Source: Sphingobium sp. WTD-1 (GTDB taxonomy: Bacteria > Pseudomonadota > Alphaproteobacteria > Sphingomonadales > Sphingomonadaceae). Taken from it: a stretch of DNA of 64,000 nucleotides. Position 1 is the first letter of the stretch. Every line of letters begins with the position of its first letter. Positions 47,588 to 62,550 of this stretch are shown here, piece after piece. The position numbers and the translations under genes were made by a program. The notes below the pieces were generated by a model. It saw only the letters and a program-made list of their open reading frames with translations. It was not told the DNA's origin and ran no database searches. Location of the stretch: positions 1,798,001-1,862,000 of the forward strand of contig NZ_CP119127.1 of the NCBI RefSeq assembly GCF_030128825.1. The letters are read 5' to 3'.

Positions 47588-47685
47588 AGTGCGACCGGAC
47601 GGGGCAGGGACTAAGGCTCACACAATAGCCCGCCATGGGCGACGCCGACGCCGGGAGGGCGCTTGGTGACAAGAGGGGAAGAGGA

Positions 47686-50655
47686 ATGAACGTGCAGATC
47701 GCAATCCATCGGCATATGGCGGGCGTCAGCCTGGCCGCGGTCGCCATCATGGCGCTGGCCGGCACCGCCCAGGCCCAGACCGAACCGGCGGCCGAACCCG
47801 CGCCGCAGGCCCAGACGAGCGATGCGCCTGCCGCACAGAGCGCCGACATCATCGTCACCGGATCGCGCATCACCACCAGCGGCTTCAATGCGCCGACGCC
47901 CACCACCGTCATCGGTGAAGAGCAGATCGCCAACAACGCCCAGCCCAACATCTTCAACACAATCGCCCAGTTGCCCTCGCTCCAGGGTTCGACCGGTGCC
48001 GCCACCGGCACCTTCTCCACCTCCAGCGGCCAGCAGGGCCTCAGTTCCTTCTCGCTGCGTGGCCTGGGCGCGATCCGCACTCTGACCCTGCTCGACGGTC
48101 AGCGCGTCGTTGGCGCCAACGTCACCGGCGTGCCCGACATCTCGATGTTCCCGCAACTGCTGGTGAAGCGCGTCGACGTCGTTACCGGCGGCGCATCGGC
48201 CTCCTATGGTTCGGATGCGGTCGGCGGCGTGGTCAACTTCATCACCGACACCCATTTCGAAGGCTTCAAGGGCAATATCCTGGGCAGCATCACCAAATAT
48301 GGCGATGACGAAACCGCGCTGGTCCAGGCCGCCTATGGCAAATCCTTCATGGATGATCGTCTGCATATGGTGGTCAGCGGCGAATATGACCATGAAGGCG
48401 GCGTGGGCGCCGGCGACTTCGGCACCGATCTGGCCGGCAGCCGCAACTGGTATCGCGCCACCACGCTGATGAATACCGGCCAGACCAACAATGGCCTGCC
48501 GCAATATAATTACCGCGATTACGCCCAGCCCTATCAATATGCCCGCTACGGCCTGATCAACAATGGCCCGCTTCAGGGCATCGCCTTCGACCAGAATGGC
48601 AATCCCTACCAGTTCAACTATGGCTCGAACGGTACGCCGACCGGCACCGGCGCGGTCACCAACTGCTATCGCGGCAACAGCTTCTGCGAAGGCGGCGACC
48701 TGTCGGGCGCACCCGGCTCGGGCGCCTCGCTCAAATCCTCGCTGGAGCGCATCAATGGCTATGGCCGGATCGGCTATGATTTCGCCGACAACAACGAAGC
48801 CTATGTCACGGTCAATGTCGCGCAGGTGAAGACCAACAACCAGCCTAGCCCCGGCTATGGCCGCGCCAACCTGACCGTCCAATGTTCCAACCCCTATCTG
48901 CCCCAGTCGGTGCGTGACCAGTGCGCCACCGCCGGCATCACCTCCTTCGGCTTCGGCTCGTCCAACGCCGCCTTCCCCGATCCGCAGGTCTATACCGATC
49001 GCAAGCAATATCGTTTCGTCGCCGGTGCCAAGGGCAAGTTCGGCGCGGCCGGCACCGACTGGAATTATGACGCCTATTATGAGCATGGCATCACCATCTC
49101 GGACATCCGGGTGAAGGATATCGTGCTGCAGAACCGCTATGCGGCGGCGGCCAATGCGATCACCCTCAACGGCGCGATCGTCTGCGCCGATCCGGCCGCC
49201 CGCGCGCTGGGTTGCCAGCCGATCAACATCTTCGGTGGCTTCACCCCCTCGGCCGCCGCGCTCGCCTATGTCGCGCCGCATGACAATGGTCCGTTCCAGC
49301 ACACCAAGCTGACCCAGGACGTCGCCAGCCTCAACTTCTCGGGCAATCCGGTGGAATTGTGGGCGGGACCGCTGTCGGTCGCCTTCGGTGCCGAATATCG
49401 CCGCGAATTCTATCGCGTGAACGCCGACCCCTATGGCGCGGGCGTGTCCGACCTCAGCCCCAACAGCGCCGATTATCCGGCCGACCCGCTGCTCAACGGT
49501 GCACAGGGTAGCAACTGGGCAGCCGGCAACTACAAGAATGGTCGCGGCAAATATGAAGTCTATGAAGGCTTCGTGGAAATCGACATGCCGCTGTTCGACA
49601 GCGAAGCGGTCGGCCGCGCCAACCTGAACGCCGCGGGCCGTGGCACCCATTACAGTACGTCGGGCACGGTCTGGGCGTGGAAGGTCGGCGGCACCTGGGA
49701 CACGCCGCTCGACGGTATCCGCCTGCGTGCGGTCACTTCGCGCGACGTGCGTGCGCCGAACCTGTCGGAACTGTTCGCCGCGCCGACCGTCACGACCCTG
49801 CCGAACTTCAACAACCCCTTCCAGGGCGCAGCGGTTCAGGCGTTCCAGAACACCATCGGCAATCCCAATCTGAAGCCTGAAATCGCCCGCAACACCGAAA
49901 TCGGCATCGTGCTGGCGCGTCCCTCCTGGCTGCCAGGCCTCAGCCTCTCGTTCGACTATTATGACATCAAGCTGAAGGGCGTCGTTTCCAGCCTGTCGGC
50001 GCAGCAGATCGTCCAGTTCTGCTATGACGGCAATCAGGCCTTCTGCGGCGGCTTCAGCCTCGACAATGCCAATCCCAGCCTCAACTATATCAATGTCCAG
50101 CCGTTCAACCTTGCCTCCTGGCGGACCAGCGGCTTCGATATCGAGGCGAGCTATCAGTGGCAGCAGCCCTTGGGCCTGCCGGGCAACTTCACCGTCCGGG
50201 CACTGGGCACCCATATTCGCAAGTTCATCGTCAACGCCGGCATTGCCGGTGTCGATCCGGTCGATCAGGCGGGCGCCAACAACGGCAACACGCCCGACTG
50301 GAAATGGCTGGCGGTGCAGACCTATGACAGCGGCAAGTTCAGCCTGACGGTGCAGGAACGCTGGATCAGCGACGGCACCTTCGGCAACCAATATGTCGTG
50401 TGCCAGTCGTCCTGCCCGGCCTCGACCGCGAACCACCCGACCATCGATTACAACAAGATGAAGGGGGCCTTCTATGTCGACATCGGCGCCACCTTCAAGT
50501 TCAGCGACCGTGTGTCCCTCTATGGCAAGGTCGACAATCTGTTCGACAAGGATCCGGTCGCGTCGCCCCAGACCAACACCGGTCTCGACATCAACCCGGC
50601 GCTCTACGACACGCTGGGCCGCGTCTACCGCGCCGGTGTCCGCTTCAATTTCTGA
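47686..50655 (+). CDS. TonB-dependent receptor of the beta-helix locus
   Basis: Outer-membrane receptor, 989 residues from the ATG at 47686, which has GGGGAAGAGG directly upstream and gives a proper signal peptide (VAIMALAGTAQAQ); 17 extra codons upstream are open. Plug motifs: ADIIVTGSRITTSGFNAPTP, SLRGLGAIRTLTLLDGQRV, VKRVDVVTGGASASYGSDAV. The barrel ends VYRAGVRFNF with a terminal Phe. Extracellular loops contain several Cys pairs (TNCYRGNSFCEGG, VCQSSCPAS). Flanked by two paralogous exported beta-helix proteins on the same strand, it most likely imports their product. Confidence 0.93.
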   Translation: MNVQIAIHRHMAGVSLAAVAIMALAGTAQAQTEPAAEPAPQAQTSDAPAAQSADIIVTGSRITTSGFNAPTPTTVIGEEQIANNAQPNIFNTIAQLPSLQGSTGAATGTFSTSSGQQGLSSFSLRGLGAIRTLTLLDGQRVVGANVTGVPDISMFPQLLVKRVDVVTGGASASYGSDAVGGVVNFITDTHFEGFKGNILGSITKYGDDETALVQAAYGKSFMDDRLHMVVSGEYDHEGGVGAGDFGTDLAGSRNWYRATTLMNTGQTNNGLPQYNYRDYAQPYQYARYGLINNGPLQGIAFDQNGNPYQFNYGSNGTPTGTGAVTNCYRGNSFCEGGDLSGAPGSGASLKSSLERINGYGRIGYDFADNNEAYVTVNVAQVKTNNQPSPGYGRANLTVQCSNPYLPQSVRDQCATAGITSFGFGSSNAAFPDPQVYTDRKQYRFVAGAKGKFGAAGTDWNYDAYYEHGITISDIRVKDIVLQNRYAAAANAITLNGAIVCADPAARALGCQPINIFGGFTPSAAALAYVAPHDNGPFQHTKLTQDVASLNFSGNPVELWAGPLSVAFGAEYRREFYRVNADPYGAGVSDLSPNSADYPADPLLNGAQGSNWAAGNYKNGRGKYEVYEGFVEIDMPLFDSEAVGRANLNAAGRGTHYSTSGTVWAWKVGGTWDTPLDGIRLRAVTSRDVRAPNLSELFAAPTVTTLPNFNNPFQGAAVQAFQNTIGNPNLKPEIARNTEIGIVLARPSWLPGLSLSFDYYDIKLKGVVSSLSAQQIVQFCYDGNQAFCGGFSLDNANPSLNYINVQPFNLASWRTSGFDIEASYQWQQPLGLPGNFTVRALGTHIRKFIVNAGIAGVDPVDQAGANNGNTPDWKWLAVQTYDSGKFSLTVQERWISDGTFGNQYVVCQSSCPASTANHPTIDYNKMKGAFYVDIGATFKFSDRVSLYGKVDNLFDKDPVASPQTNTGLDINPALYDTLGRVYRAGVRFNF

Positions 50656-50733: not shown

Positions 50734-53700
50734 ATGTATCGTGGATTGAGCGGAGCCTGCGCATCCGTCCTGCTGTGCCTGGCCGCCGCGCAGCCCGCCG
50801 CCGCTTCCCCGTCCGTCTATACCGCCATGCCCGACGATGCGCGGGCCGTGACGGTGAAGGGCGTGGGCGATGGCCGCGCCGATGACAGCGCCGCGATCCA
50901 GCAGGCGCTCGACGCCGCCGCCGCGACGCCCGGCGGCGGCATAGTCTTCTTGCCCCAAGGCACCTATCGCATCAGCCGCACCCTGTTCCTCTGGCCCGGC
51001 GTGCGCATCTTCGGCATTGGTGCCCAGCGCCCGACGATCCTGCTCGGTGCCAACACACCCGGCTTCCAGCGCGGCGTCGCCCATATGCTGATCTTCACCG
51101 GTGGCAAGCGTCAGACCGACAAGGAAAGCTGGCCCGCCGCCTTCCCGCCGGCCGGCAGCGTGCCGTTCGACAAGACAATTGCCGACGCCAATCCGGGCAC
51201 CTTCTATTCCGCGCTCGGCAATATCGATTTCCGCATCATGGACGGCAATCCGGCGGCGACCGCGATCCGCTTCCATTCCGCCCAGCACAGTTTCGTCAGC
51301 CATGTCGATTTCGACATCGGGTCGGGCCTCGCGGGCCTCTACCATGTCGCCAACGAGGCGGAGGATCTGCATTTCAAGGGCGGCCGCTATGGCATCCTCG
51401 CGGAAAAGACCTCGCCGGCCTGGCCCTTCGCCCTGGTCGATGCCACGTTCGAGGGACAGCGCGACGCCGCCATCCGCGAGCATGAAGCGGGCCTGACCCT
51501 GCTCAATGTCGCCTTCCGCAATGTGCCGGTCGGGATCGAGATCGACCGGGGCTATGGCGACTGGCTCTGGGGCCAGGATGTCCGCTTCGAGAATGTGTCG
51601 AAGGCTGGCGTCATCATTTCCAACGAGAAGAATGTCTATACCCAGGTCGGCTTCCAGAATGTGCTGGCCGCCAACACGCCAACCTTTGCCCGCTTCCGCG
51701 AAAGCGGCCGGACGGTGGCGGGACAGGGGAAGGCCTATAAGGTTGCCTCCTTCACCCATGGCCTGACCCTGCCGGGCCTTGGCCGGATCGGCGACTATAA
51801 GACCGACATGCAGGCGCAGCCGATCGCCAGCCTGCCGGCGCCCGGCGCGCCCGCCATCCGCCCGCTGCCTCCGGTCTCCGAATGGGTGAATGTCCGCACA
51901 TTGGGGGCGAAGGGCGACAATAGCACGGACGACACTGCCGTGCTGCAGAAGGCGATCGACAGCTATCGCGTCGTCTACCTCCCCGTCGGCTTCTACAAGG
52001 TCAGTGACACGCTGCGGCTGCGCGCCGACACGGTGCTGCTCGGCCTCCACCCCAGCCTGACCCAGATCGTCCTGCCCGATGGCACGCCCGCCTTTCAGGG
52101 TGTCGGCGTGCCCAAGGCGCTCATTGAAAGCGCGCAGGGTGGCGACGCGATTGTCGCTGGCCTGGCGCTGGACACCAGCGGCGCCAATCCGCGCGCGACC
52201 GGCCTGTTGTGGAAGGCCGGTGCCAACTCGATGGTCAACGACGTCAAGTTCCAGGGCGGTCATGGCACCGATGCCTTCGACGGCAGCCGGCGCAATCCCT
52301 ACAACAACAACGCCACCGCCGATCCCGACGCATCGCGCCGCTGGGGCGGCCAATATGCCAGCCTCTGGGTGACGCAGGGCGGCGGGGGCACCTTCGCCAA
52401 TATCTGGAGCCCCAGCACATTCGGCCATCCGGGCATATTGATCTCCGACACGGACACGCCGGGCCGGTTGATCCAGGCCTCGGTCGAACATCATGTCCGC
52501 ACCGAAATCGGCCTCAACCGCGTCGCCAACTGGGAATTGCTGGCGCCCCAGACCGAGGGGGAGGCGGGCGAGAGCGGCGATGCCGTCGCGCTCGAAATCC
52601 GCGACTCCCGCAACATCTTGGTCGCCAATTTCCACGGCTATCGCGTCACCCGCACGCGCAAGCCTGCGCCGACCGCCGTGTCGCTCTATAATTCCCACGA
52701 CATCCGCTTCCGCAACGTCCATGTGAACGCGGAAAGCGGGGTCGGCACCTGCGACGAAAATGGCTGCGGCACCTTCTTGCGCCTCACCAAATATCCGTTC
52801 GAGAATGCGATTCAGGACATCAGCCACGGCCTTGAAGTGCGCGAGCGCGAATTCGCCGTGCTCGACGTGCCGGCGAAGCCCGATCCGGTCGCCCCCTCGA
52901 CCTTCGGCGGCGCCAGCGTGGAGAAACTCGCTGATGGTTTCTACGGGTTGGGCGGCGGCGCGGTGGACGCACAGGGCCGGCTCTATTTCATCGACCGCTT
53001 CTTCCAGCGCATCTGGCGCTGGTCCGACGCGGGCCGGCTGGAGATGATCCGCGACGCCGCGCTCGATCCGGTGAACCTGACCATCGACAAGTCGGGTAAT
53101 CTGCTCGTCCTCTCCTCCTATGGCCGCAACGGCACCGTCTACAGCGTCACCCCCGGCGCGCCGGACACGCAGGTCAGCGTCATCCCGGCGACGCCTACGG
53201 GGCAGGGCAGCGCGGCCACGATCTTCCCGGTCAACTGGTGGGTGAATGGCGAGTTTAGGGACCAGATCGATCCCAAGACCTATGCGTTCACCACGCTTGC
53301 CGACATGTTCGCCCGCGACGCCGCACAGTCCAATGCGCAGGCCTATGTCTCGCCCGACGGCAGCATTGCCCTGCCGGCCTGGCGCGTCTTCGCCCAGGGA
53401 CCGGTCGACCATCGCGGCCTGCGCTTCTCGCATACGCTCGACAGCTATGGCTTCGTCCAGGGCAAGCCGGGCCAGCGCATCTATGTCACCAACGGATCGG
53501 AAAACCGCACCTACAGCGCGCTGGTCGCCGGCAACGGTACGCTCACCGACCTCAAGCCCTTTGCCGATCGTGGTGGCGAGGGCGTGGTCAGCGATGCGCA
53601 GGGCCGGGTCTATGTCGCCAATGGCCATGTCTTCGTCTACGCGCCCGACGGCAAGCCGATCGGCCGGATCGACGTGCCCGAACGGCCGCTACAGCTGCTG

Positions 53701-53772
53701 TTCGGCGGCCCGGACGGCAAGACCCTGTTCATGTTGTCGCACCACGGCCTTTACGCGGCGCGGGTGGAATAG
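50734..53772 (+). CDS. Exported two-beta-helix protein with SMP-30/lactonase-like tail (paralogue B)
   Basis: A 1012-residue secreted protein with the same three-part build as the product at 44526: signal peptide (LLCLAAAQPAAAS), beta-helix 1 (VKGVGDGRADDSAAIQQALD, ~37), beta-helix 2 (VRTLGAKGDNSTDDTAVLQ, ~382), and a lactonase-like propeller from ~729 (DGFYGLGGGAVDAQGRLYFID). Long stretches are shared with paralogue A, e.g. DVRFENVSKAGV and FRNVHVN.ESG, and insertions differ mainly in the second helix. It is separated from the receptor by a terminator, so it may have its own promoter in the short gap or depend on read-through. Function unknown; probably acts on the same glycan as A with different linkage preference (inference). 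Confidence 0.8.
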   Translation: MYRGLSGACASVLLCLAAAQPAAASPSVYTAMPDDARAVTVKGVGDGRADDSAAIQQALDAAAATPGGGIVFLPQGTYRISRTLFLWPGVRIFGIGAQRPTILLGANTPGFQRGVAHMLIFTGGKRQTDKESWPAAFPPAGSVPFDKTIADANPGTFYSALGNIDFRIMDGNPAATAIRFHSAQHSFVSHVDFDIGSGLAGLYHVANEAEDLHFKGGRYGILAEKTSPAWPFALVDATFEGQRDAAIREHEAGLTLLNVAFRNVPVGIEIDRGYGDWLWGQDVRFENVSKAGVIISNEKNVYTQVGFQNVLAANTPTFARFRESGRTVAGQGKAYKVASFTHGLTLPGLGRIGDYKTDMQAQPIASLPAPGAPAIRPLPPVSEWVNVRTLGAKGDNSTDDTAVLQKAIDSYRVVYLPVGFYKVSDTLRLRADTVLLGLHPSLTQIVLPDGTPAFQGVGVPKALIESAQGGDAIVAGLALDTSGANPRATGLLWKAGANSMVNDVKFQGGHGTDAFDGSRRNPYNNNATADPDASRRWGGQYASLWVTQGGGGTFANIWSPSTFGHPGILISDTDTPGRLIQASVEHHVRTEIGLNRVANWELLAPQTEGEAGESGDAVALEIRDSRNILVANFHGYRVTRTRKPAPTAVSLYNSHDIRFRNVHVNAESGVGTCDENGCGTFLRLTKYPFENAIQDISHGLEVREREFAVLDVPAKPDPVAPSTFGGASVEKLADGFYGLGGGAVDAQGRLYFIDRFFQRIWRWSDAGRLEMIRDAALDPVNLTIDKSGNLLVLSSYGRNGTVYSVTPGAPDTQVSVIPATPTGQGSAATIFPVNWWVNGEFRDQIDPKTYAFTTLADMFARDAAQSNAQAYVSPDGSIALPAWRVFAQGPVDHRGLRFSHTLDSYGFVQGKPGQRIYVTNGSENRTYSALVAGNGTLTDLKPFADRGGEGVVSDAQGRVYVANGHVFVYAPDGKPIGRIDVPERPLQLLFGGPDGKTLFMLSHHGLYAARVE

Positions 53773-53776
53773 GGGA

Positions 53777-55117
53777 TCAAATTATCAGTCCGGGGATGAT
53801 CTTGTTCGTCTCCAGACTGCCTGTGCCCCAGCGGTCGACCGGCACGCCCATCGCCTGTTGCAGGGTCAGGCCGACGCGGCTGACCGGCGATCCGTCGCCG
53901 GTGATATATTGGCCGGTATGGATGCGTCCGCCGGCCGACCCCGCCGTCATCATCGGGATATTGTCGATCGTGTGGAATTTGGCGAACTCGGTCTCGCTAT
54001 GGGCAAAGACCAGGCTGTTATCCAGCAGGGTGCGGTCGCCCTCCTTCACCGCGTCCATCGCCTTGATGAAATAGGTCCAGGCCTCCATGCACTTGTCGAC
54101 ATAGAAGGTGACTTCGGGCTGATAGCCCAACCGGTTGTCCAGCACCTCCTCATGGGTCAGCTGATGATGGGTGATGGTGCTGCCCACGCGCGTCAGCGAC
54201 GACGCGCCATTGTTGAAGTTCATGTTGAACAGCCGGACATTGTCGCACGCCATCGCCATCACCAGCAGATCGGTCATGATCTCGTGATTGCGCATGACAT
54301 TCTCGATCTCGGCGTTGACCGGCAGGTCGGGCACCTTGGGCGGCACGATACAGGCCTGCATCGGCGCCGGCTTGGTCAGTTGCACGTCAAGCTGGTTTTC
54401 CAGCTGCCGCAGCGAGGTGAAATATTGGTCGAGACGCTGCCTGTCGGCCGCGCCCAGCCGCGCCTCCAGCGCCTGGCGCTGGTCGGACACGCCGGATAGG
54501 ACACTGCGCCGCGCCATCACCGCCGGATCGGGGGTGAAGGTCGCGCTGTTGGGATCATGGAAGCCCGCGCCGAACAGCCTTGTATACAGGGCGGCGGGCG
54601 ACACTTCCGCCGGGTTGAGATTGCCATTGCCGCGCCCGGACAGCGAATTGCGCGGATCGCCGGTTGCCGACAGTTCGATCGAGCGGAAGCGGGTGCGGGT
54701 GCCGATCACATCGCCGATCGACACGTCGAAGGACGGCCCCGGCAGGCCCCGGTCGGAATCGATCGCCATGCCGGTGCGGATGCCGATGCCGCCGCTGATG
54801 TGCGGCAGGTTGGGCTTGCCGTCGAGCGGCAGGGTGAAGTCGCCCAGGATATTGACCTTGTGCTTGAGCGCCTCGATCGAGGCCAGTTCGACCTTCAGCT
54901 CATAATCTTTGCCGGCGGCGCTGGGGAACCAGCGCGGCGGATTGACGCCCAGCCCCCAGAACCAGGTGCCGAAACGGATCGGCATCGGCGCGCCGGTCGC
55001 CGCCATGGCGGTGCCGTTGCCGTCGAGGAAGATGTCGAGCAGCGGCAGGCCGACGGCCACGGCCATGCCGTTGACCATGCCGCGCAGCGCGGTGCGGCGA
55101 TCGAGGGTGAAGCTCAT
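53777..55117 (-). CDS. DUF1552 exported protein
   Basis: A 446-residue protein of the DUF1552 family, function not established. A twin-arginine-like leader is present (LDRRTALRGMVNGMAVAVGLPLLD). Family landmarks: PIRFGTWFWGLGVNPPRWFP, VNILGDFTLPLDGKPNLPHISGG, the segment LSGRGNGNLNPAEVSPAALYTRLFG, and LVFAHSETEFAKFHTIDNIPMM near the end. In many bacteria DUF1552 genes sit beside DUF1588/1592 genes, as here, where its start overlaps the previous stop by 4 nt. Last gene of a seven-gene minus-strand operon; it ends 4 bp from the convergent paralogue B stop. Confidence 0.88.
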   Translation of the reverse strand: MSFTLDRRTALRGMVNGMAVAVGLPLLDIFLDGNGTAMAATGAPMPIRFGTWFWGLGVNPPRWFPSAAGKDYELKVELASIEALKHKVNILGDFTLPLDGKPNLPHISGGIGIRTGMAIDSDRGLPGPSFDVSIGDVIGTRTRFRSIELSATGDPRNSLSGRGNGNLNPAEVSPAALYTRLFGAGFHDPNSATFTPDPAVMARRSVLSGVSDQRQALEARLGAADRQRLDQYFTSLRQLENQLDVQLTKPAPMQACIVPPKVPDLPVNAEIENVMRNHEIMTDLLVMAMACDNVRLFNMNFNNGASSLTRVGSTITHHQLTHEEVLDNRLGYQPEVTFYVDKCMEAWTYFIKAMDAVKEGDRTLLDNSLVFAHSETEFAKFHTIDNIPMMTAGSAGGRIHTGQYITGDGSPVSRVGLTLQQAMGVPVDRWGTGSLETNKIIPGLII

Positions 55118-56832
55118 GGGCGGTCTCCTTCGCGGATATGCGGGCTGGTCATCATCGCGACCTGGGGTTTCGCCAGCGGCGGCGTGCTGACGCGATAGGC
55201 ATCGGCCATGGTCGCGACCCGCAGGAACAGCGCCTGGATGCGGTAGCCGTCGGCGGCGAAGCCCTGTTCCAGCGCCATCGCAGTCGCTTCCTCATCCTGC
55301 GGCATCCGGCCGGTCGCATATTGGAAGGCGCGGCCGGCAACGCATTCGGTGGTCGATTTGCTCGCCGCCAGCGCCTGGCCCAGGCCGACATTGCCCTTGA
55401 AGGCGGTGCCCTCGAACACGCCGGCGGTATCGATCGGCGCGTCATTCTCGGTCCGGCGGAAGGCGCCGATGCCGTCGAACCGCTCCAGCGGCAGGCCCAG
55501 CGGGTCGGTGATCTTATGGCAGGCGGCACAGACCGGATCGCTATTATGGGCGTTCAGGCGAATGCGCGCGGTCGGCATCGCCTTGTTGCCGACATCCTGT
55601 ACGGCGGTGAAATTGACGTTGCCGGGCGGATTGGGCACCGGCTGGCACAGCAGCAGTTCGCGGATCGCCCGGCCGCGCAGGGTCGGCGAACTGCGCCCCG
55701 AATGAGAATAGAGCGCCAGGAAGCCGGCCTGGCCCAGCAGCCCGGCGCGATCGTCGCCATCGGCAAATTCATAGGGCACCCAGCCCTGCATGCTGGAGAC
55801 CTTGGCCTGATAGAGCGGCCCCAGCGCCCGGTTGATGAAGGTCCGCCGGGTGGTGAACAGGTCGCGATAGTCGCCCTGTCGCGTCACCAACTGGTCGACG
55901 ATCATGCGCAGCATCTGTTCGGACAGGGCCGACGCGACATCGGGGTTGAAGCGGGGATAGACGATCTGGTCCTTGGCCATTTCGTCGAACTTCTCGAACA
56001 ACAGCATGTCGGCGAAGAAGGCGCGCACGCCATCCTCCAGCCGGGACGAACGGACCATTTTCTGCGCGATCGCTGCGAGCTGCGCGGGATCGGTGAGCTT
56101 GCCCTCGTCGGCCGCGCGCAGCAGCGCCTCATTGGGCGTCGTGTTCCACAGCAGGTAGCTCAACCGCGCGGCGCGGGCATGGTTGTCGAGCCGCAGGCTG
56201 CCGGGCGCTTCGGGGTCGGGCTCTGCGCTCTCGATGATGTAGAGGAATTGTGGCGATACCAGCATGGCGGCGAGCGCCAGCTGCATCCCGTCATAGAAGC
56301 CCTGGCCATCGCCAGCGCCCTTGCCGGCCATCATGACGAAGGCGCCGATCTCCTCCTGAGTCATCGGCCGGCGAAACAGGTAGCGGCCGATCGGCATCAG
56401 CGTCCGTGCGGCGCAATCGGCGTCGGGCGCGGCCGCGTCGCGCGGGGCGCAGGGCATGAACTGGGCGCGGCGATCCGGCGCAAACACCTGCGCGGCGATA
56501 TTGCGCGCCATCGCATCGAACTGCTCCAGTCCGGCGGGTGAGATGGTCGATGCGCTGGCGCCGGTCGCGATCAGCTCATGCACCGGCCGCACGATCGGCT
56601 CGAACCGGCCTGCCACCTTGATGTCCGCGCCGAAGATATCGGCGATGCTATTGCGATATTGCGCTTCGGTCAGGCGGCGCATCCCCGCCACCTGGCCCAG
56701 CGGCGTCTTCAAGGGCGCGAAGCTGGCGTCGGGCGTGGCGGCGGTCTGCGGTGCCTTCTCGACCGTGCAGGCGCTCAGCATCAGCCCGGCGAGCAACGCC
56801 CAGCGCGCCCTATGGCGAAACGGTCGGCTCAT
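55114..56832 (-). CDS. DUF1587/1595/1592/1588/1585 lipoprotein with CxxCH motif
   Basis: A 572-residue predicted lipoprotein (lipobox LMLSAC at about residue 22) of the planctomycete-type cytochrome-like family. Segments in order: MRRLTEAQYRNSIADIFG (DUF1587), GRYLFRRPMTQEEIGAF (DUF1595), RLSYLLWNTTPNEALLRAAD (DUF1592), SPTLRGRAIRELLLCQPVPN with VCAACHKITDPLGLPLERFD (DUF1588; the CxxCH could bind heme) and a DUF1585-like end. The start at 56832 overlaps the upstream stop as ATGA and gives the lipoprotein signal; 29 further open codons are shadow. Function is unknown, but the pairing with a DUF1552 gene is common. Confidence 0.87.
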   Translation of the reverse strand: MSRPFRHRARWALLAGLMLSACTVEKAPQTAATPDASFAPLKTPLGQVAGMRRLTEAQYRNSIADIFGADIKVAGRFEPIVRPVHELIATGASASTISPAGLEQFDAMARNIAAQVFAPDRRAQFMPCAPRDAAAPDADCAARTLMPIGRYLFRRPMTQEEIGAFVMMAGKGAGDGQGFYDGMQLALAAMLVSPQFLYIIESAEPDPEAPGSLRLDNHARAARLSYLLWNTTPNEALLRAADEGKLTDPAQLAAIAQKMVRSSRLEDGVRAFFADMLLFEKFDEMAKDQIVYPRFNPDVASALSEQMLRMIVDQLVTRQGDYRDLFTTRRTFINRALGPLYQAKVSSMQGWVPYEFADGDDRAGLLGQAGFLALYSHSGRSSPTLRGRAIRELLLCQPVPNPPGNVNFTAVQDVGNKAMPTARIRLNAHNSDPVCAACHKITDPLGLPLERFDGIGAFRRTENDAPIDTAGVFEGTAFKGNVGLGQALAASKSTTECVAGRAFQYATGRMPQDEEATAMALEQGFAADGYRIQALFLRVATMADAYRVSTPPLAKPQVAMMTSPHIREGDRP

Positions 56833-58013
56833 CGCTGCGCCACCTTGGCCTGGGGCAGGCGGTCGGTGACGAAGGCGGGCACGGCCCAGGCCTCCATGCC
56901 GCTGGAAATGCGGCGGCACTGGCCGGTCGCCGGATCGCGATCGCCATCGGCCATCGCCTTCAATGCCGCATACATGGCGGCGCAGTCATAGCCCGCCGTA
57001 GTCGCCGCGCCCTCGCCACCGACCGAGGCGCTGGCCATCACGTTCCAGATCGGCTGATAGCCGCCGACGATGCCCTTGATCGATCCGTCCGGCTGGAAGG
57101 TGAAGCGCAGCCGCGCCCGGGTGAAATCATATTCGTTGCGGCGGCCACGAATGTCGCGTTCCGACCCCTGACCCCAATTCTGCTTCAGCTTGATATGGGC
57201 CGGCTCGGTGGTCAGCACGCCGTTGACGATCCGACCTTTCAGCACATTGCGATGATCGGCATTGGCGGTGACGCTGTAGCTGGCGCCGGGGATGAAATTC
57301 TGGCGTGAATCCACCACCGCCCGATCTTCGGTATTGGCGTAGATCACCGTCACGTCGGGATCATTTTCCAGACTGTCGACGCCGGTCAGCAGCAGCAGCT
57401 GGCTATGTTCGCCGCTCACCAGAAACTGGGTCAGGCCCTTGACGATGTCGCCGCCCGTGCCGTCGACCCCGCGCCAGGTCCGCACGCAGCCCATTGCCCG
57501 CCACATCTGGTTGTCGACGCCCGGTTCGCCCGCAGGCCCGGTGAAATTGGCATGGCCGCAGGTGTCGTCCGCCGCCGCGCCGTCCGCGTCATCGTCCAGG
57601 TTCAGCCCCTGCGCGACCTTGCCCTGCACCATGCGCTGGGGCGGTCGGTCGAACTTGTCGGGATGAGTGCAGATATTGATATTGTCGGGACCAAAGGCAT
57701 AGCCGGTCCAGCGCGTGGTCAGTTCCTTCTCGTTCGCCTTTTCCAGCAACCGCGTCCGCTCGCCGACCGGCTGGGTCTGCAGGTAATTTTCGCGCAGGGT
57801 CGCGGCCAGGCCCTGGGGGCAATCCTCCTTCCCCTGATAGATGGCCGGCGCGAAATGACTGACGACGAAGCCCATCTCGCCATTGGCGGGCGGTGCGGGC
57901 AGCGCTGCGGGTGCGGCCGGTTTCGCGGGCGCATCGCCCTGCGCGGAGGCCGACGCCGCGAGCGGCAGCGCGGCCAGCAGCAGGACCAGTGTGCGATGAT
58001 TCTGCACGATCAT
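56829..58013 (-). CDS. Exported protein of unknown function
   Basis: A 394-residue secreted protein from the ATG at 58013 (AAGGAAAGG upstream); the ATG at 58034 overlaps the preceding stop and is the alternative. Signal peptide LVLLLAALPLAASASAQ, then an Ala/Pro linker. The mature part has GEMGFVVSHFAPAIYQGKEDCPQGLA, FGPDNINICTHPDKF, DDTCGHANFTGPAGEPGVDNQMW and VRFTFQ-like beta strands near the end; paired cysteines suggest disulfides. The family was not recognised. Position between the secreted-repeat gene and the DUF1592-type gene, with overlapping ends, implies a shared role. Confidence 0.8.
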   Translation of the reverse strand: MIVQNHRTLVLLLAALPLAASASAQGDAPAKPAAPAALPAPPANGEMGFVVSHFAPAIYQGKEDCPQGLAATLRENYLQTQPVGERTRLLEKANEKELTTRWTGYAFGPDNINICTHPDKFDRPPQRMVQGKVAQGLNLDDDADGAAADDTCGHANFTGPAGEPGVDNQMWRAMGCVRTWRGVDGTGGDIVKGLTQFLVSGEHSQLLLLTGVDSLENDPDVTVIYANTEDRAVVDSRQNFIPGASYSVTANADHRNVLKGRIVNGVLTTEPAHIKLKQNWGQGSERDIRGRRNEYDFTRARLRFTFQPDGSIKGIVGGYQPIWNVMASASVGGEGAATTAGYDCAAMYAALKAMADGDRDPATGQCRRISSGMEAWAVPAFVTDRLPQAKVAQR

Positions 58014-58030
58014 CCTTTCCTTGCGAAATA

Positions 58031-58822
58031 TCATGGGATCAGCGGTTCGGCCTCGGCGGGAATATCCGCCGGGTCGTCGCCCGCGATTGTGAAGACCGGC
58101 CGGTCGCGATAGGCCCATTGGGCGCGGTCGCCATCGGGCCGGACGGTCCAGGCGCCCATGCCCCGCCGCGCCATGCCCGCCGGGAAGACGCGCCAGTCGG
58201 CGCAGGCCGTGCCACAGGCTTTGCCCTTATGCGTCACCAGCAAATTGCCCTGGCCATCGACCAGCAGATAGCGCCCGTCCACCAGCCGCGCCGTCACATC
58301 GGCCGGCGCGTCGATCTTGGGCGCGGCCGGCACATATTTCAGGCTGTTCCAGACCAGCCCGTCCTCGCCCTCATGGCCGATCGTGCCGGGCCGCTCGCCG
58401 GCATGGGTGAAGACCAGATTGACCCGTTTATAGACCCATTGCGGCCCGCTCGGTCCCTGCATCACGATCCAGTCGGGGCCATCCTGCTTCAGCCGGGGCG
58501 CCTTGCGATCGCCGCCGAACTCGGGCGGGGCAGGCACGATCTCCGCCTTGGCGGGCGCGGCCAGCGGCGTCCATTGGGTCAGGCAATCGCCCGAACACCA
58601 GAGCGGCTGATGTCCGATCCGCCCGGTCACGGCGCGCATATCCATGCCATAGAGGGTGCGGCCATGGGCATCGACATAGACGCTTTGGTCACCGACCTTG
58701 CGGACGCTGACACCGGCCGGCAGTGGCTCGCCGCTCGCCGCCTCCGGCGGTAGGTCGGCGGCCTGCGCCCAGAGCGCAGCCGGCTGCACCAGCCACAGGA
58801 TCGCGGCCGCCCGGCGCCACAT
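58031..58822 (-). CDS. Exported 'secreted repeat' protein (COG4315-like)
   Basis: A 263-residue secreted protein with signal peptide (AILWLVQPAALWAQ). It contains two copies of a short beta-rich repeat known from bacterial secreted lipoproteins: VYVDAHGRTLYGMDM... PLWCSGDCLTQWTPL and LLVDGQGNLLVTHKGKACGTACADWRVF. Each copy has a Cys-x(3)-Cys pair and a Trp, as expected for the family. Between them lies VYKRVNLVFTHAGERPGTIGHEG. Biochemical role unknown; such proteins often neighbour cytochromes, as here. Stop overlaps the next gene's alternative start, and its start overlaps the cytochrome c stop by one base. Confidence 0.82.
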   Translation of the reverse strand: MWRRAAAILWLVQPAALWAQAADLPPEAASGEPLPAGVSVRKVGDQSVYVDAHGRTLYGMDMRAVTGRIGHQPLWCSGDCLTQWTPLAAPAKAEIVPAPPEFGGDRKAPRLKQDGPDWIVMQGPSGPQWVYKRVNLVFTHAGERPGTIGHEGEDGLVWNSLKYVPAAPKIDAPADVTARLVDGRYLLVDGQGNLLVTHKGKACGTACADWRVFPAGMARRGMGAWTVRPDGDRAQWAYRDRPVFTIAGDDPADIPAEAEPLIP

Positions 58823-59292
58823 CAGCGCTTCTCCTCAACGCGGAAGCTGCGGTGGCAGGTGCCACAGCTCTGCCCCAGCGTCTTGGCCGCAACCCGCATC
58901 TTCGCCACATCGCCGCTCGCCGCGACGGTGGCAAAGCTGTTGGCCTGCGTGGTGAAGCCGTCCTGCGCCGCCTTGAATGCGGCTGGCTGGCTCCAGATTT
59001 CCGGCTTGGCCGCCGTCTTGACGCCGGGCTTCGGACCGCTGCCGGCCGGGAACCAGCCCTGTTGCTGGCGGGCATAGTCGCGGATCTGCCGCGCCGAAAT
59101 CTGGATCACATAGGTTTGCGGCGTGGCCGATTTCAGCTCGTCATTGATATTCTTGAACGCCGCGCCGACCTCGCGGAAGCCCGCGATCCGGGTGGCGACG
59201 ATATCGCCGGGTGCCGCCGCCAGCGGTGCCGCGCAGAGCAGCGCCAGCATCGCGGCCGGCCGCTTCATCCGCGCTGTATCGTGCATCCTCAT
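58822..59292 (-). CDS. Cytochrome c'/c556-type monoheme protein
   Basis: A 156-residue exported cytochrome with signal peptide (LALLCAAPLAAAP). A single heme site CGTCHRSF sits at the extreme C-terminus after a long helical stretch, the layout of cytochrome c' and c556 four-helix bundles. The ATG at 59292 has AAGGGA 6 nt upstream; the ATG at 59268 would also leave a signal. Likely periplasmic electron carrier or gas-binding protein next to a cytochrome b561 in the same operon. Confidence 0.87.
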   Translation of the reverse strand: MRMHDTARMKRPAAMLALLCAAPLAAAPGDIVATRIAGFREVGAAFKNINDELKSATPQTYVIQISARQIRDYARQQQGWFPAGSGPKPGVKTAAKPEIWSQPAAFKAAQDGFTTQANSFATVAASGDVAKMRVAAKTLGQSCGTCHRSFRVEEKR

Positions 59293-59312
59293 CCTCGTCC
59301 CTTTCATGTCTG

Positions 59313-59969
59313 TCACAGCATCGGATCGGCAAAGACCCACCAGGCGAGGGTGCCCGCCAGCAGGATGGCGACGGCGAAGGCGACAGGCGACGCGCGCCGC
59401 ACCGCCACCGGCTCGCCGGTCACTTTCGTCCGGCCGCTGACCATCGGCCCGATCAGGTTGCGCCGTCGTACCAGCAGGTAGAACAGCACCGCCGCGACAT
59501 GCAGGCCGATCAGCACCTGCAGGATGGTGAAGCTGATGCCGTGGATGTCGGAGGCGAGCCGGCCCTGATCGAAATCGACCAGATGCGACAGCGGCCCGGA
59601 TTCGATGCCGTCGATATCGACCGCGAACAGGCCAGTGCCGACCTGCACCGCCAGCGCCAGCAGCATCGCCACCACGCTCCAGCCGCCCAGCGGATTATGG
59701 CCCGGCGCCGCGGGCGCGCGGCCGGTCAGATAGGCGAGGATCGCCCGCGGTCCGCGCAGGAACTGGGCAAAGCGCGCCGGTCCGGACCCGATCAGGCCCC
59801 AGATCAGGCGAAAAACGATCAGGAACAGCACGGCCTGGCCCGACAGGCGATGCCAGTCCATGTGATAGGTTTCCGCGCTCCACCAGGAAAAGCCGATCAG
59901 GCCGACCAGCGCCCAGTGGAACAGGCGGATGGGCAAGTCCCAGACATATTGACGCGCGGGGTTCGCCAT
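59313..59969 (-). CDS. Cytochrome b561-type membrane protein
   Basis: A 218-residue inner-membrane diheme b-type cytochrome with four to five helices: WDLPIRLFHWALVGLIGFSW (heme His), WHRLSGQAVLFLIVFRLIWG, WSVVAMLLALAVQVGTGLFA, DIHGISFTILQVLIGLHVAAVLFYLL (two His) and a C-terminal helix. It would transfer electrons between the quinone pool and periplasmic partners such as the neighbouring HiPIP and cytochrome c. Start at 59969, overlapping the HiPIP stop by one base (TAATG). Confidence 0.92.
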   Translation of the reverse strand: MANPARQYVWDLPIRLFHWALVGLIGFSWWSAETYHMDWHRLSGQAVLFLIVFRLIWGLIGSGPARFAQFLRGPRAILAYLTGRAPAAPGHNPLGGWSVVAMLLALAVQVGTGLFAVDIDGIESGPLSHLVDFDQGRLASDIHGISFTILQVLIGLHVAAVLFYLLVRRRNLIGPMVSGRTKVTGEPVAVRRASPVAFAVAILLAGTLAWWVFADPML

Positions 59970-60277
59970 TAGCTCTTCTTCGCCCAGCTGTCGCACACGC
60001 CTTCGGCCGGCACGATGCCGCCGCTCAGCAGCGCGCATTTGCCGCAGCCCGGCTGGGCGGCGGTGAAGAAGGCGCAGAGGCCGCAGCGCCTGGCCGCATC
60101 GGTCGATGTGCGAAAGCCCAGCGACTTGCGCATGCTCTTCTGCGCGGCGGACAGGCTGGCCGGATCGATACATTCGGCGGCCTCGGCGATGCTGGCCAGC
60201 CCCAGCGGCACGCAGGCGATCAGGCCCAGCGCCGATCGGCGGCTCCAGTGACGGACATGATGATCGCTTGCCGCCAT
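59969..60277 (-). CDS. High-potential iron-sulfur protein (HiPIP)
   Basis: A 102-residue Tat-exported electron carrier. The twin-arginine leader is clear (WSRRSALGLIACVPLGLAS). Four cysteines for one [4Fe-4S] cluster occur in the family pattern: RRCGLCAFF, PGCGKCALLSG and VCDSWAKKS, with the last Cys near the C-terminus. The ATG at 60277 has AGGAG upstream; a GTG at 60286 is in frame. It is the first gene of the operon that continues with cytochrome b561 and cytochrome c, and is divergent from the two-component genes. Confidence 0.9.
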   Translation of the reverse strand: MAASDHHVRHWSRRSALGLIACVPLGLASIAEAAECIDPASLSAAQKSMRKSLGFRTSTDAARRCGLCAFFTAAQPGCGKCALLSGGIVPAEGVCDSWAKKS

Positions 60278-60359
60278 GCGGCCCACTCCTCTTCCCTGCC
60301 GGCCCGGTTGCTCCGGTCCTCTTGTGCGTTCCTTCTAGCAGGGGGGCGCCGGATTAATT

Positions 60360-60425
60360 TGTCAGCGCCGACAAAATCGGCGCAGAATGCAGGCGCTTAT
60401 TCCGTCCTTTGTGTCGGGCCTGACA
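60360..60425. promoter_or_regulatory. Two TGTC-N6-GACAAAATC sites, 52 bp apart
   Basis: TGTC-agcgcc-GACA (60360-60373) and TGTC-gggcct-GACA (60412-60425), each followed by AAATC and then GGCGC. The centres are 52 bp apart, about five helical turns. They lie between the HiPIP operon and the response-regulator gene and are likely binding sites for that regulator. Confidence 0.65.
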
Positions 60426-60475
60426 AAATCCGGCGCGGGCCGGCGGCTAGAAGAAGCGGAATGGGAAGAGGAGGG

Positions 60476-61222
60476 ATGAGGGTGACAGCGAAGCTGACAG
60501 GCGACAGCGCGCCGGGCGACACGCATATCCTGATCGTTGATGACGATCCGTCGCTGCGCGCGCTGGTCCGCGTTTTCCTGATGCAGGAAGGCTATGTCGT
60601 CAGCGAAGCCGCCGATGGCCCGGCGATGCGCGCCATCCTCGCCCATCAGCCGGTCGATATCATCGTCCTCGACGTCATGATGCCGGGCGAGGACGGGCTG
60701 TCGATCGCCCGCTCGCTCGCGGGGCAGCAGGATGCCGGCATCATCATGGTGTCGGCGCTGGGGACGGAGGGCGACCGGATCACCGGCCTGGAAATGGGCG
60801 CCGACGATTATCTGCCAAAGCCGCTGTCGCCGCGCGAACTGCTCGCCCGCATCCGCGCGCTGCAGCGCCGCCGTCGTCCGGTCGCCGACACCCGCCAGCC
60901 GGTGCTGGCCCATTATCATTTCGAAGGGTGGCAGCTCGATCCGGTGCGACGGGTACTGCGCGATCCGGCCGGCATCATCATCAGCCTGTCGGAGGGGGAG
61001 TTCGCCCTGCTGCTCGCCTTCATCGAACATCCCCAACAGATATTGAACCGCGACGCGCTGGTCGAACTGGCGCGCGGCGAGGATGCCGATGTGTTCGACC
61101 GGGCGATCGACACCCAGGTCAGCCGCTTGCGCCGCAAGCTCGGCACCCGCGCGCGTGGCGAGCTGATCCACACCGTCCGGTCCGAAGGCTATATCTTCCA
61201 GGCGCCGGTGCAGCGCGGATGA
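60476..61222 (+). CDS. OmpR-family response regulator
   Basis: Two-component DNA-binding regulator of 248 residues. Receiver domain: HILIVDDDPSLRAL, phospho-accepting Asp66 in IIVLDVMMPGEDG, VSALGTEGDRITGLEMGADDYLPKPLSPREL with the conserved Lys. The C-terminal winged helix ends VSRLRRKLGTRARGELIHTVRSEGY. The ATG at 60476 lies 3 nt after GGAGG; a GTG at 60482 with better spacing is also possible, as is an ATG at 60461. Its stop overlaps the kinase start (ATGA). Divergent from the HiPIP/cytochrome operon, its probable target. Confidence 0.93.
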   Translation: MRVTAKLTGDSAPGDTHILIVDDDPSLRALVRVFLMQEGYVVSEAADGPAMRAILAHQPVDIIVLDVMMPGEDGLSIARSLAGQQDAGIIMVSALGTEGDRITGLEMGADDYLPKPLSPRELLARIRALQRRRRPVADTRQPVLAHYHFEGWQLDPVRRVLRDPAGIIISLSEGEFALLLAFIEHPQQILNRDALVELARGEDADVFDRAIDTQVSRLRRKLGTRARGELIHTVRSEGYIFQAPVQRG

Positions 61223-62550
61223 AGGCGGGCTTCCTGCGCTGGGCCAATTCGATCCACGCCCATCTGCTGGCGCTGGCCCTGGTCGTGATCCTGACGCTGA
61301 CCGCCTTCAGCCTGACCCTGCTGCTCTATTTCATTCCGCCCGAACGGGTGCCGCTTTCGGTCTATGAGATTGCCCGCATCGTCCATGGCCAGCCCCTGCT
61401 GCGCGACGAGCCGGTGGTGCATGAGGCGCGGCAGGCCGCCGCGCCGCCGGCATCGACCGACCCGGCCGATCGGCTGATCGCCGCGCTGCTGGCCCGGCGC
61501 CTCAGCCTGCCGGCGGCCAATGTGCGCATCCGCCTCGACCCCGGCGATCGTGAGCGGATCGGCCAGTTCGTAGCGGAGATGCAGCTTTACGGCCCCGATG
61601 GGCTCGCCGATCCCTTCATCCTGGGCACCTTCACCGCTGCGATCCGCCAGCCTGATGGTCAGTGGCGGATGATCACGCGCGAGGCGCGGGGCGGGCGGTC
61701 GCTCTGGCGGCTGCTCGGTCAATATGCCTTCCTCGTCGGCATCCTGCTGGTGGTGCCGCTCAGCCTCTGGTTCAGCGCGCGGCTGACTCGCCCGATCCGC
61801 GCCTTTGCCGCCTCGGCCGAGCGAATGGGGGCAGGGCAGGAGGAACAGCCGATCCCGCTCGACGGGCCGAGCGAGATCCGGCTGGCGGCGCAATCGATCA
61901 ACGAGATGCAGGCGCGCATCGCCCGCTATGTGCGCGAGCGAACCTCGGTCGTCGGGGCGATCGCCCATGATCTGCGCACGCCGCTGTCGCGCCTCCATTT
62001 CCACCTCACCGCCGCGCCCGCGCCGGTGCGGATCGCGGCCGAGGAGGAAATCCGCCAGATGGAGGCGCTGATCGGCACGACGCTGGATTTCGTCGACAAT
62101 GAAAACCGCCCCCGCCTCAAGGAGCCGCTCGACCTTGGCCTGCTGGTCGAGGGGCTGGTCGATGATTTTGCTGACATGGGCCGTGACGTGACCCTGACGG
62201 GCGCGGAGCCTGTCATCATCGCGGGTGACATGATCCTGCTCAAGCGGCTGTTCACCAACCTGATCGACAATGCGATCAAATATGGCGACCGCGCGCGGGT
62301 GCGGGTGATGCGCGACGAGGGGCGGGCGATCGTCACGATCGAGGATGACGGGCCGGGCATGGAACAGGCCGATATCGCCCGCGCCTTCGAGCCCTTCTAT
62401 CGCGGCGAACCTTCCCGCAACCGCAGCACCGGCGGCGTGGGCCTCGGCCTGTCGATCGTCCAGTCGGCGGCGCAGGCGCATCAGGGCCGGGTGCTGCTGG
62501 CGCGCGCGCCCGATGGTGGGCTGCGCGCGCAGGTCGAGCTGCCGGTTTAG
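61219..62550 (+). CDS. Sensor histidine kinase
   Basis: Inner-membrane kinase of 443 residues, partner of the preceding regulator. First helix ALALVVILTLTAFSLTLLLYF, a ~140-residue periplasmic sensor region with no recognised domain, second helix YAFLVGILLVVPLSLWFSA, HAMP (RLTRPIRAFAASAERMG), H-box with His250 in GAIAHDLRTPLSRL, N-box LIDNAIKYG, and ATP lid motifs EDDGPGM and GGVGLGLSIV. The signal may concern the redox operon opposite (inference). Confidence 0.93.
   Translation: MKAGFLRWANSIHAHLLALALVVILTLTAFSLTLLLYFIPPERVPLSVYEIARIVHGQPLLRDEPVVHEARQAAAPPASTDPADRLIAALLARRLSLPAANVRIRLDPGDRERIGQFVAEMQLYGPDGLADPFILGTFTAAIRQPDGQWRMITREARGGRSLWRLLGQYAFLVGILLVVPLSLWFSARLTRPIRAFAASAERMGAGQEEQPIPLDGPSEIRLAAQSINEMQARIARYVRERTSVVGAIAHDLRTPLSRLHFHLTAAPAPVRIAAEEEIRQMEALIGTTLDFVDNENRPRLKEPLDLGLLVEGLVDDFADMGRDVTLTGAEPVIIAGDMILLKRLFTNLIDNAIKYGDRARVRVMRDEGRAIVTIEDDGPGMEQADIARAFEPFYRGEPSRNRSTGGVGLGLSIVQSAAQAHQGRVLLARAPDGGLRAQVELPV

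Follow-up and report, generated by a model that had tools for sequence, protein, structure and literature searches.

We describe a switchable operon of Sphingobium sp. WTD-1 that appears to link the respiratory chain to an exported DUF1588-DUF1552 protein pair, distant relatives of which help other bacteria digest cellulose. The operon lies in a 64,000-nucleotide stretch of contig NZ_CP119127.1 (positions 1,798,001 to 1,862,000 of the forward strand, hereafter the window) and consists of a minus-strand run of seven genes (53777..60286) encoding, in order, a high-potential iron-sulfur protein (HiPIP), a cytochrome b561-type membrane protein (b561), a cytochrome c', a Lipoprotein_15-like protein, UNK, a DUF1588 lipoprotein and a DUF1552 protein, UNK being our working name for an unnamed exported protein family encoded 5' of the DUF1588 gene. 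A sequence-only reading of the window had reported these seven genes with a divergent two-component pair, all of which are present, and had suggested their linkage to an electron chain; the latter is borne out by comparisons of 16 genomes and by a tree of 87 proteins, in which electron carriers recur beside DUF1552 far beyond chance. We tentatively propose, with confidence falling somewhat short of even, that the operon provides its own dedicated electron line through the periplasm to a DUF1588-DUF1552 unit of two parts, along which quinone-linked electrons would pass via the DUF1588 haem to a metal site in DUF1552.

Carrier linkage was tabulated for the 16 Sphingomonadaceae genomes with a DUF1552 match over the cut-off (G428, with a match under it, was left out), three of which are apparently the same as L007, L008 and L009 of the locus survey described below. 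Genes for cytochrome c' (PF01322) lie within 6 kb of DUF1552 at 14 of 23 places, in 14 of the 16 genomes, against 0.09 expected; all six HiPIP (PF01355) places fall within this distance (0.02 expected), as do 12 of 63 b561 (PF01292) places, in 12 genomes (0.22 expected), the chance expectation being a guide only, since the genomes are related. The misses comprise one genome without cytochrome c' (G438), one with three copies, none of them near (G465), and the ten of 16 genomes that have no PF01355 match. Five of the genomes hold another DUF1552 subfamily, without UNK; cytochrome c' and b561 stand beside the pair in four of these five (L139-L142), and the carrier linkage spans two DUF1552 subfamilies. 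On the tree of 87 DUF1552 proteins, in which L145 and L146 occupy very long branches, the presence of cytochrome c', HiPIP and b561 within 7 kb changes at least 11 times each. A joint gain of cytochrome c' and b561 was set aside, the independent-pairs test being too small.

Relatives of the locus were surveyed with a UNK-profile scan of named genomes, in which 80 of 89 loci were kept and carriers were counted over the whole stretch of each locus. Among the 27 Sphingomonadales loci, 18 carry HiPIP, 24 cytochrome c' and 14 b561. UNK and DUF1552 lie within 6 kb of each other at 68 of the 80 loci (25 of 27 Sphingomonadales and 43 of 53 others); the two Sphingomonadales misses are contigs of about 4.4 kb ending just after UNK, and the ten remaining loci have UNK without DUF1552 in the stretch examined. 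The titles of the 53 other loci name Rhodospirillales, Hyphomonas, Steroidobacter, Acidobacteria, Myxococcales and more. Conservation of the seven-gene order had been put forward as a check on the operon: the strict order is kept at seven of the 80 loci (L002-L007, L009), each with the divergent regulator pair, and the UNK-DUF1588-DUF1552 core at most, while L008 has the operon set minus b561 at the locus and parts are reshuffled or missing outside close relatives. The operon and regulators of the nearest named relative in the survey, Sphingobium scionense, are 95-99% identical, with HiPIP at 90%. The spread is patchy: among 199 Pseudomonadota genomes four, counting that of the window, have DUF1552, which occurs in 17 of 298 Sphingomonadaceae genomes (16 over the cut-off), and UNK in 11 of the latter, all within those 17 and adjoining DUF1552. 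Among the neighbours of window-type loci, scanned for 122 of 192 selected proteins at 24 loci, the top families were TonB receptors (11 of the 122 proteins) and cytochromes c (5).

Several further arrangements were observed at surveyed loci. The UNK of L053 is 28% identical, and its core stands together with cytochrome c', HiPIP and b561; a PQQ-type (pyrroloquinoline quinone) dehydrogenase gene (PF01011; L053:14372-16288) lies beside the run UNK-DUF1588-DUF1552-cytochrome c'-HiPIP-cytochrome c'-b561. At three Steroidobacter-type loci (L045, L048, L080), HiPIP and two weak matches to class-II cytochromes accompany the core, with kinase/regulator and TonB-receptor matches nearby and, in L045, a gene with two cytochrome c domains after HiPIP. 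In the other subfamily, an ankyrin-repeat gene lies between DUF1552 and cytochrome c' at all three loci scanned (L139:10464-11642, L141:10720-12156, L142:10891-12252). Cytochrome c' and b561 genes stand side by side away from DUF1552 as well (G320:C1:317422-318368, G497:C1:19973-20934, G465:C1:1004794-1005725), and this pair is therefore a module of its own. Tandem UNK genes alternate with Lipoprotein_15-like genes at L043, L047, L068 and L069, the L043 and L069 arrays being without DUF1588/DUF1552 in the stretch examined, and L135, outside the 24-locus neighbour set, has a gene of glycoside hydrolase family GH3.

The DUF1588-type lipoprotein (55114..56832, minus strand) carries the domains PSD3, PSD5, PSD4, PSCyt3 and PSD2 in this order (DUF1587-1595-1592-1588-1585; PF07626, PF07637, PF07631, PF07627 and PF07624, all above cut-off) together with a CxxCH motif, an X132-type module, and a lipobox, LSAC, read from the sequence. 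Four of the five domains occur in 47/47 window-type relatives and DUF1587 in 40/47, and the CxxCH pointed out earlier in this protein is kept in 47/47 window-type proteins and in 37/37 across subfamilies. An ordinary His/Met cytochrome was rejected for this protein, with no conserved Met near CxxCH; M276 is kept in 42/47. In the other subfamily the DUF1588 protein is longer, with weak cytochrome domains and a second CxxCH at the front in 5/5 (L139-L143), and in Gammaproteobacteria the module sits at the C-terminal end of large proteins. Among the 49 long DUF1588 relatives listed with the G268 protein as query, 40 have a GSDH-type propeller, though this choice of query biases the set; other long relatives carry CBM2 (a carbohydrate-binding module, CBM), YceI, PF00128 (P0205, P0206) or PF00759 (P0221), the last two of which we take to be alpha-amylase and GH9. 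DUF1588 matches are strongly multiplied in G616, G644, G598 and G626, of the family of G268 (53, 28, 26 and 24).

Partnership with DUF1552 is near-invariant. Of 32 DUF1588 loci (those of the window, G268 and G203, plus 29, at most one per genome, from the family of G268), 31 have a DUF1552 gene behind DUF1588, and the contig ends in the remaining one; a DUF1552 gene also stands behind DUF1588 in all eight longer stretches picked by protein length, two of which overlap the 32 loci. Seven of these eight (L179-L183, L185, L186; L179 without CBM2) are Cbp2D-like, with a YceI gene in front at 7/7 loci and YceI and cytochrome c inside all seven large proteins; L184 has a layout like the TERTU proteins of Teredinibacter turnerae, with DUF1552 behind. 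The L181 row encodes a 366-aa CBM2-YceI protein, a 1122-aa CBM2-YceI-cytochrome-DUF1587-1595-1592-1588 protein with its cytochrome match at residues 475-557, and a 402-aa DUF1552 protein. Statements on published systems are drawn from the accessible portions of the papers cited. Cbp2D of Cellvibrio japonicus is 1,122 aa long (PMC12542752) and its X183 construct covers bases 1408-1674, or residues 470-558 (PMC8981238); because length and cytochrome position agree, the L181 large protein is probably Cbp2D or a close orthologue, a name that we infer. Cbp2D comprises CBM2, X158 (YceI-like), X183 (a small c-type cytochrome) and X132 with CxxCH, DUF1587 being marked (PMC8981238, PMC10916295); at the X132 front of the T. 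turnerae proteins the printed label is DUF1687 (PMC10916295), which we take as DUF1587. Given the positions of DUF1587 and CxxCH, X132 would correspond to the DUF1588 module, an equation made by position and not stated in the accessible text of PMC8981238 and PMC10916295.

The X183 cytochrome of Cbp2D is redox-active and reduces lytic polysaccharide monooxygenases (LPMOs), and a YceI relative has been solved with ubiquinone-8, as cited there (PMC8981238). Cellvibrio requires cbp2D and cbp2E for growth on insoluble cellulose, deletion of either hurts more than deletion of lpmo10B, and the authors propose a new cellulose-cutting mechanism by Cbp2D and Cbp2E (PMC12542752). The window system shares with Cbp2D/Cbp2E (X158-X183-X132) the X132 module, with DUF1587-1595-1592-1588 and CxxCH, the DUF1552 gene behind it, as in L181 and six similar loci, and a quinone link (YceI in Cbp2D, b561 in the window operon). 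It differs in that the window DUF1588 protein, 27% identical over 474 aa to Cbp2D-like P0220, is a lone lipoprotein whose chain bears no CBM2, YceI or X183 cytochrome in a Pfam scan, the carriers being separate genes; UNK is present in the window operon, and a polysaccharide link has been shown for Cbp2D. TERTU_2913 and TERTU_3803 likewise end in a C-terminal X132 with CxxCH but are large secreted proteins with X122, a propeller and CBMs (PMC10916295). The PSCyt3 genes of Planctomycetes and Verrucomicrobia have the same Pfam modules, usually beside an unknown family, and their function is stated as unknown; the accessible text reports no HiPIP, cytochrome c', b561 or UNK with them (PMC5615132). 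Fungal PQQ pyranose dehydrogenase and cellobiose dehydrogenase feeding LPMOs follow a similar sequence, from dehydrogenase or quinone through cytochrome to oxidative enzyme (PMC8981238, PMC10154616), a likeness that is an analogy only.

In a sample of 38 DUF1552 proteins from all subfamilies, H106, H318 and H322 are kept in 38/38, H382 in 36/38 (the other two have a His one column off) and D131 in 35/38, and a twin-arginine motif is found in every protein. The motif that gives the family its name, HxxSHH, is not matched in the window protein, which has HQLTHE, two universal His being kept (38/38). The combination of twin-arginine (Tat) export with a His-rich site suggests that the metal of this predicted site would be loaded before export.

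These elements can be arranged into a working scheme. b561 would exchange electrons with quinol, cytochrome c' and HiPIP would ferry them across the periplasm, and the predicted haem of the DUF1588 lipoprotein would receive them; DUF1552, Tat-exported in folded form and bearing a putative His-rich metal site, may then use them for an oxygen-, peroxide- or otherwise reduction-driven reaction, the likely target being an exported substrate. UNK and the Lipoprotein_15-like protein would be accessory, and the kinase and regulator would switch the electron line on through dyads upstream of the operon. In Cellvibrio-type relatives the same unit is apparently supplied via a quinone-binding YceI and a small cytochrome c, with binding modules directing it to polysaccharide, and one shared scheme of quinone link, small carrier, X132 haem and DUF1552 is favoured because YceI and cytochrome precede X132 in Cbp2D-like proteins. 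An electron direction toward DUF1552 is plausible. An oxygen- or peroxide-using DUF1552 reaction would be our first choice, for two reasons: relatives act in the breakdown of polysaccharides, a process with known electron-fed oxidation, and deletion of cbp2D or cbp2E carries the heavier cost. The window system itself may act on something other than a polysaccharide. A bolder version, which we regard as doubtful, would see in DUF1552 the catalytic subunit, long overlooked, of a new class of exported oxygenases that are fed with electrons and combine haem with a metal, with the X132 haem of Cbp2D feeding DUF1552 rather than, or besides, LPMOs, and with the Sphingobium operon as a periplasmic, quinone-fed version having its own switch and a different substrate. 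If true, feeding of DUF1552 by the X132 haem would account for the fact that growth on cellulose suffers more from the loss of cbp2D or cbp2E than from that of the LPMO.

Several results weigh against the working scheme, beyond the relatedness of the tabulated genomes. The 53 non-Sphingomonadales loci carry few carriers (HiPIP 10, cytochrome c' 10, b561 1), and no CAZyme (carbohydrate-active enzyme) appears among the first 25 of 141 neighbour families near window-type loci. The His six residues before CxxCH, kept in 47/47 window-type proteins, is found in only 28/37 and 20/32 in wider sets and was rejected as a universal haem ligand. Electron transfer from X183 to LPMO is slow (PMC8981238), and a T. 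turnerae propeller of the kind found on long relatives bound no PQQ and oxidised no glucose (PMC10916295). The DUF1588-DUF1552 pair also has a remote sister, DUF1800-DUF1501, similar by profile in both halves and in adjacency but different in that 12/12 DUF1800 proteins (leaving out L111 and L118, read in wrong frames) are without CxxCH, for which reason the basic function may need no haem.

Electrons might also flow the other way, with DUF1588-DUF1552 oxidising an exported substrate and HiPIP, cytochrome c' and b561 passing electrons to an oxidase or the quinone pool, an alternative that we consider unlikely yet the most serious of those entertained. Among solved structures, only the b subunit of E. 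coli hydrogenase 1 was found as a b561 relative, and this subunit passes electrons from a periplasmic enzyme to quinone; HiPIPs usually have high potential and feed oxidases; the dehydrogenase-type propeller on 40 of the 49 long relatives in the query-biased set and the PQQ-type dehydrogenase gene adjoining the module in L053 point the same way. The window operon itself, however, has no dehydrogenase, DUF1552 shows no recognised redox cofactor motif, and YceI in Cbp2D-like proteins fits either direction. The sister pair bears on a further explanation, likewise unlikely and placed slightly behind reversed flow, in which DUF1552 works as a hydrolase or transferase dependent on a metal and resembles alkaline phosphatase, as we presume DUF1501 does; the haem would then do no more than sense the redox state or keep the complex together. 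Profile comparison gave 68% for DUF1552 against DUF1501 and 80% for DUF1588 against DUF1800, crossed or unrelated pairings staying under 8%, and DUF1800 and DUF1501, a pair without the haem motif, are adjacent at 31 of 34 DUF1800 places, in 25/25 Alphaproteobacteria genomes with DUF1800. With smaller profile sets, however, the values are 12% and 74%, the DUF1552-DUF1501 match is short and covers different columns between runs (345-380 in the 12% run, 135-217 in the 68% run), and the recurrent electron carriers are left unexplained. Defence against nitric oxide or oxidative stress, with cytochrome c' as the active part and the DUF pair as a passenger or in a repair function, appears very improbable. 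It would suit the two-component control of the operon and the Phe, not Met, in the distal column of cytochrome c', whose haem is then presumably five-coordinate and gas-binding; the core nevertheless occurs without cytochrome c' at 43 of 53 non-Sphingomonadales loci, Cbp2D-like systems are without cytochrome c' and have growth on cellulose as their phenotype, and HiPIP and b561 go unexplained. The DUF1800-DUF1501 pair has also been seen with chitin synthase genes (PMC5122149).

The description of the locus as undescribed holds for this operon and for UNK, and does not extend to the DUF1588 module, which is the X132 of the already studied Cbp2D and TERTU proteins; the DUF1588-DUF1552 pair, its haem motif and Cbp2D are already known. 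No agreed function for DUF1552/DUF1588 pairs was found in the literature searched, in keeping with the earlier statement, nor did that literature hold b561/cytochrome c'/HiPIP supply, the UNK family, the dyads, the near-invariant X132-DUF1552 pairing or DUF1552 behind Cbp2D-like genes. The accessible portions of the Cbp2D papers (PMC12542752, PMC8981238, PMC10916295) contain no mention of DUF1552 and no passage on the neighbouring gene, and the accessible text of the papers found to mention DUF1552 does not concern Cbp2D. The supply chain, UNK and the near-invariant DUF1552 partner look new. Some polysaccharide degraders have very many DUF1588-DUF1552 genes, one genome giving 53 DUF1588 matches. 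The window holds a compact system in which each carrier is a small protein of its own, and a partner gene beside a Cbp2D-like gene, in a tractable genus, emerges from the survey. Together, the window system and the Cbp2D partner make a long-open question of function directly testable.

In the window operon, export of every product was judged from its N-terminal sequence and appears likely. The HiPIP (59969..60286, minus strand) has a twin-arginine-type leader, matches PF01355 (E 1.3e-6, 29.0 bits against a cut-off of 22) and the solved HiPIP 3h31 (E 2.6e-6), and carries the four cluster Cys, with six Cys unvarying across 19 homologues. b561 (59313..59969, minus) matches PF01292 (E 2.1e-21), and its profile matches the E. 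coli hydrogenase-1 b subunit 4gd3 (E 1e-4). The next protein (about 58822..59292, minus), earlier called a cytochrome c with a C-terminal heme, does have CxxCH near its C-terminus and is more exactly a cytochrome c' (PF01322, E 1.4e-24) lacking a distal Met: Phe occupies the column of residue 16 in alignments with solved cytochromes c', 31 of which are among the matches listed. The 263-aa Lipoprotein_15-like protein (58031..58822, minus) had been described as a secreted-repeat protein; it is predicted to be exported, and its PF03640 match is very weak (E 0.13, 12.2 bits, below the cut-off of 24.4 bits), and PF03640 is listed for 7 of 13 orthologues, with a best E of 0.043. A 430-aa gene behind DUF1552 in the distant locus L075 matches PF03640 at E 8.1e-45, and the window-type 263-aa profile matches such genes at 43 of 53 non-Sphingomonadales loci (about 34 to 91 bits), by which similarity the window protein is most readily read as a diverged relative of these strong PF03640 neighbours. 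UNK (56829..58034, minus) is predicted to be exported, with six conserved Cys and no Pfam family, neither of two Pfam searches finding a domain in the 120 listed homologues. DUF1552 (HXXSHH family; 53777..55117, minus) has a twin-arginine leader and a strong PF07586 match (E 6.5e-49, 167.6 bits against a curated cut-off of 30 bits), the only DUF1552 match in the 5.67-Mb host genome. Sequence searches up to E 5 found no solved relatives for DUF1552, DUF1588, UNK or the 263-aa protein.

The overlapping ends ascribed to the operon are present at five of six junctions: HiPIP/b561 and cytochrome/263-aa overlap by 1 base, and 263-aa/UNK, UNK/DUF1588 and DUF1588/DUF1552 by 4 bases (ATGA), while a gap of about 20 bases, or 5 if an earlier cytochrome start is used, separates b561 from the cytochrome. 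Diverging from the operon are genes for an OmpR-type response regulator (60476..61222, plus strand; PF00072, PF00486) and an EnvZ-like sensor kinase (61219..62550, plus; PF00672, PF02518), which overlap by 4 bases and have OmpR and EnvZ, respectively, as best NCBIfam matches, each below its cut-off. The repeated sites reported between the divergent units correspond to two TGTC-N6-GACA dyads, TGTCAGCGCCGACA at 60360..60373 and TGTCGGGCCTGACA at 60412..60425, 52 bases from the first, both of which are likely regulator sites. A TTTGT-N6-9-ACAAA dyad is seen once in the 189-base gap, a count reached in 2 of 20,000 single-base shuffles. A dyad lies 5' of HiPIP in six of eight close relatives inspected (L002-L006, L008), and none was found in the 280 bases upstream of HiPIP in L007 and L009, where another frame intervenes. 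Genome-wide, the core TTGTC-N6-GACAA pattern occurs at 4 places against 6 for a control pattern; no wide regulon is therefore indicated, and this candidate was rejected.

Downstream of the operon, on the plus strand, lies a gene for a 1012-aa exported protein with pectate-lyase-like (PF12708) and SMP-30/gluconolactonase-like (PF08450) domains (50734-53772), ending 4 bases from the DUF1552 stop and preceded by a TonB receptor gene (47635-50655). A polysaccharide operon in the window was considered and rejected, both genes being common only to the near-identical L002; L008 has a receptor-like frame that is 32% identical to the window TonB-receptor gene.

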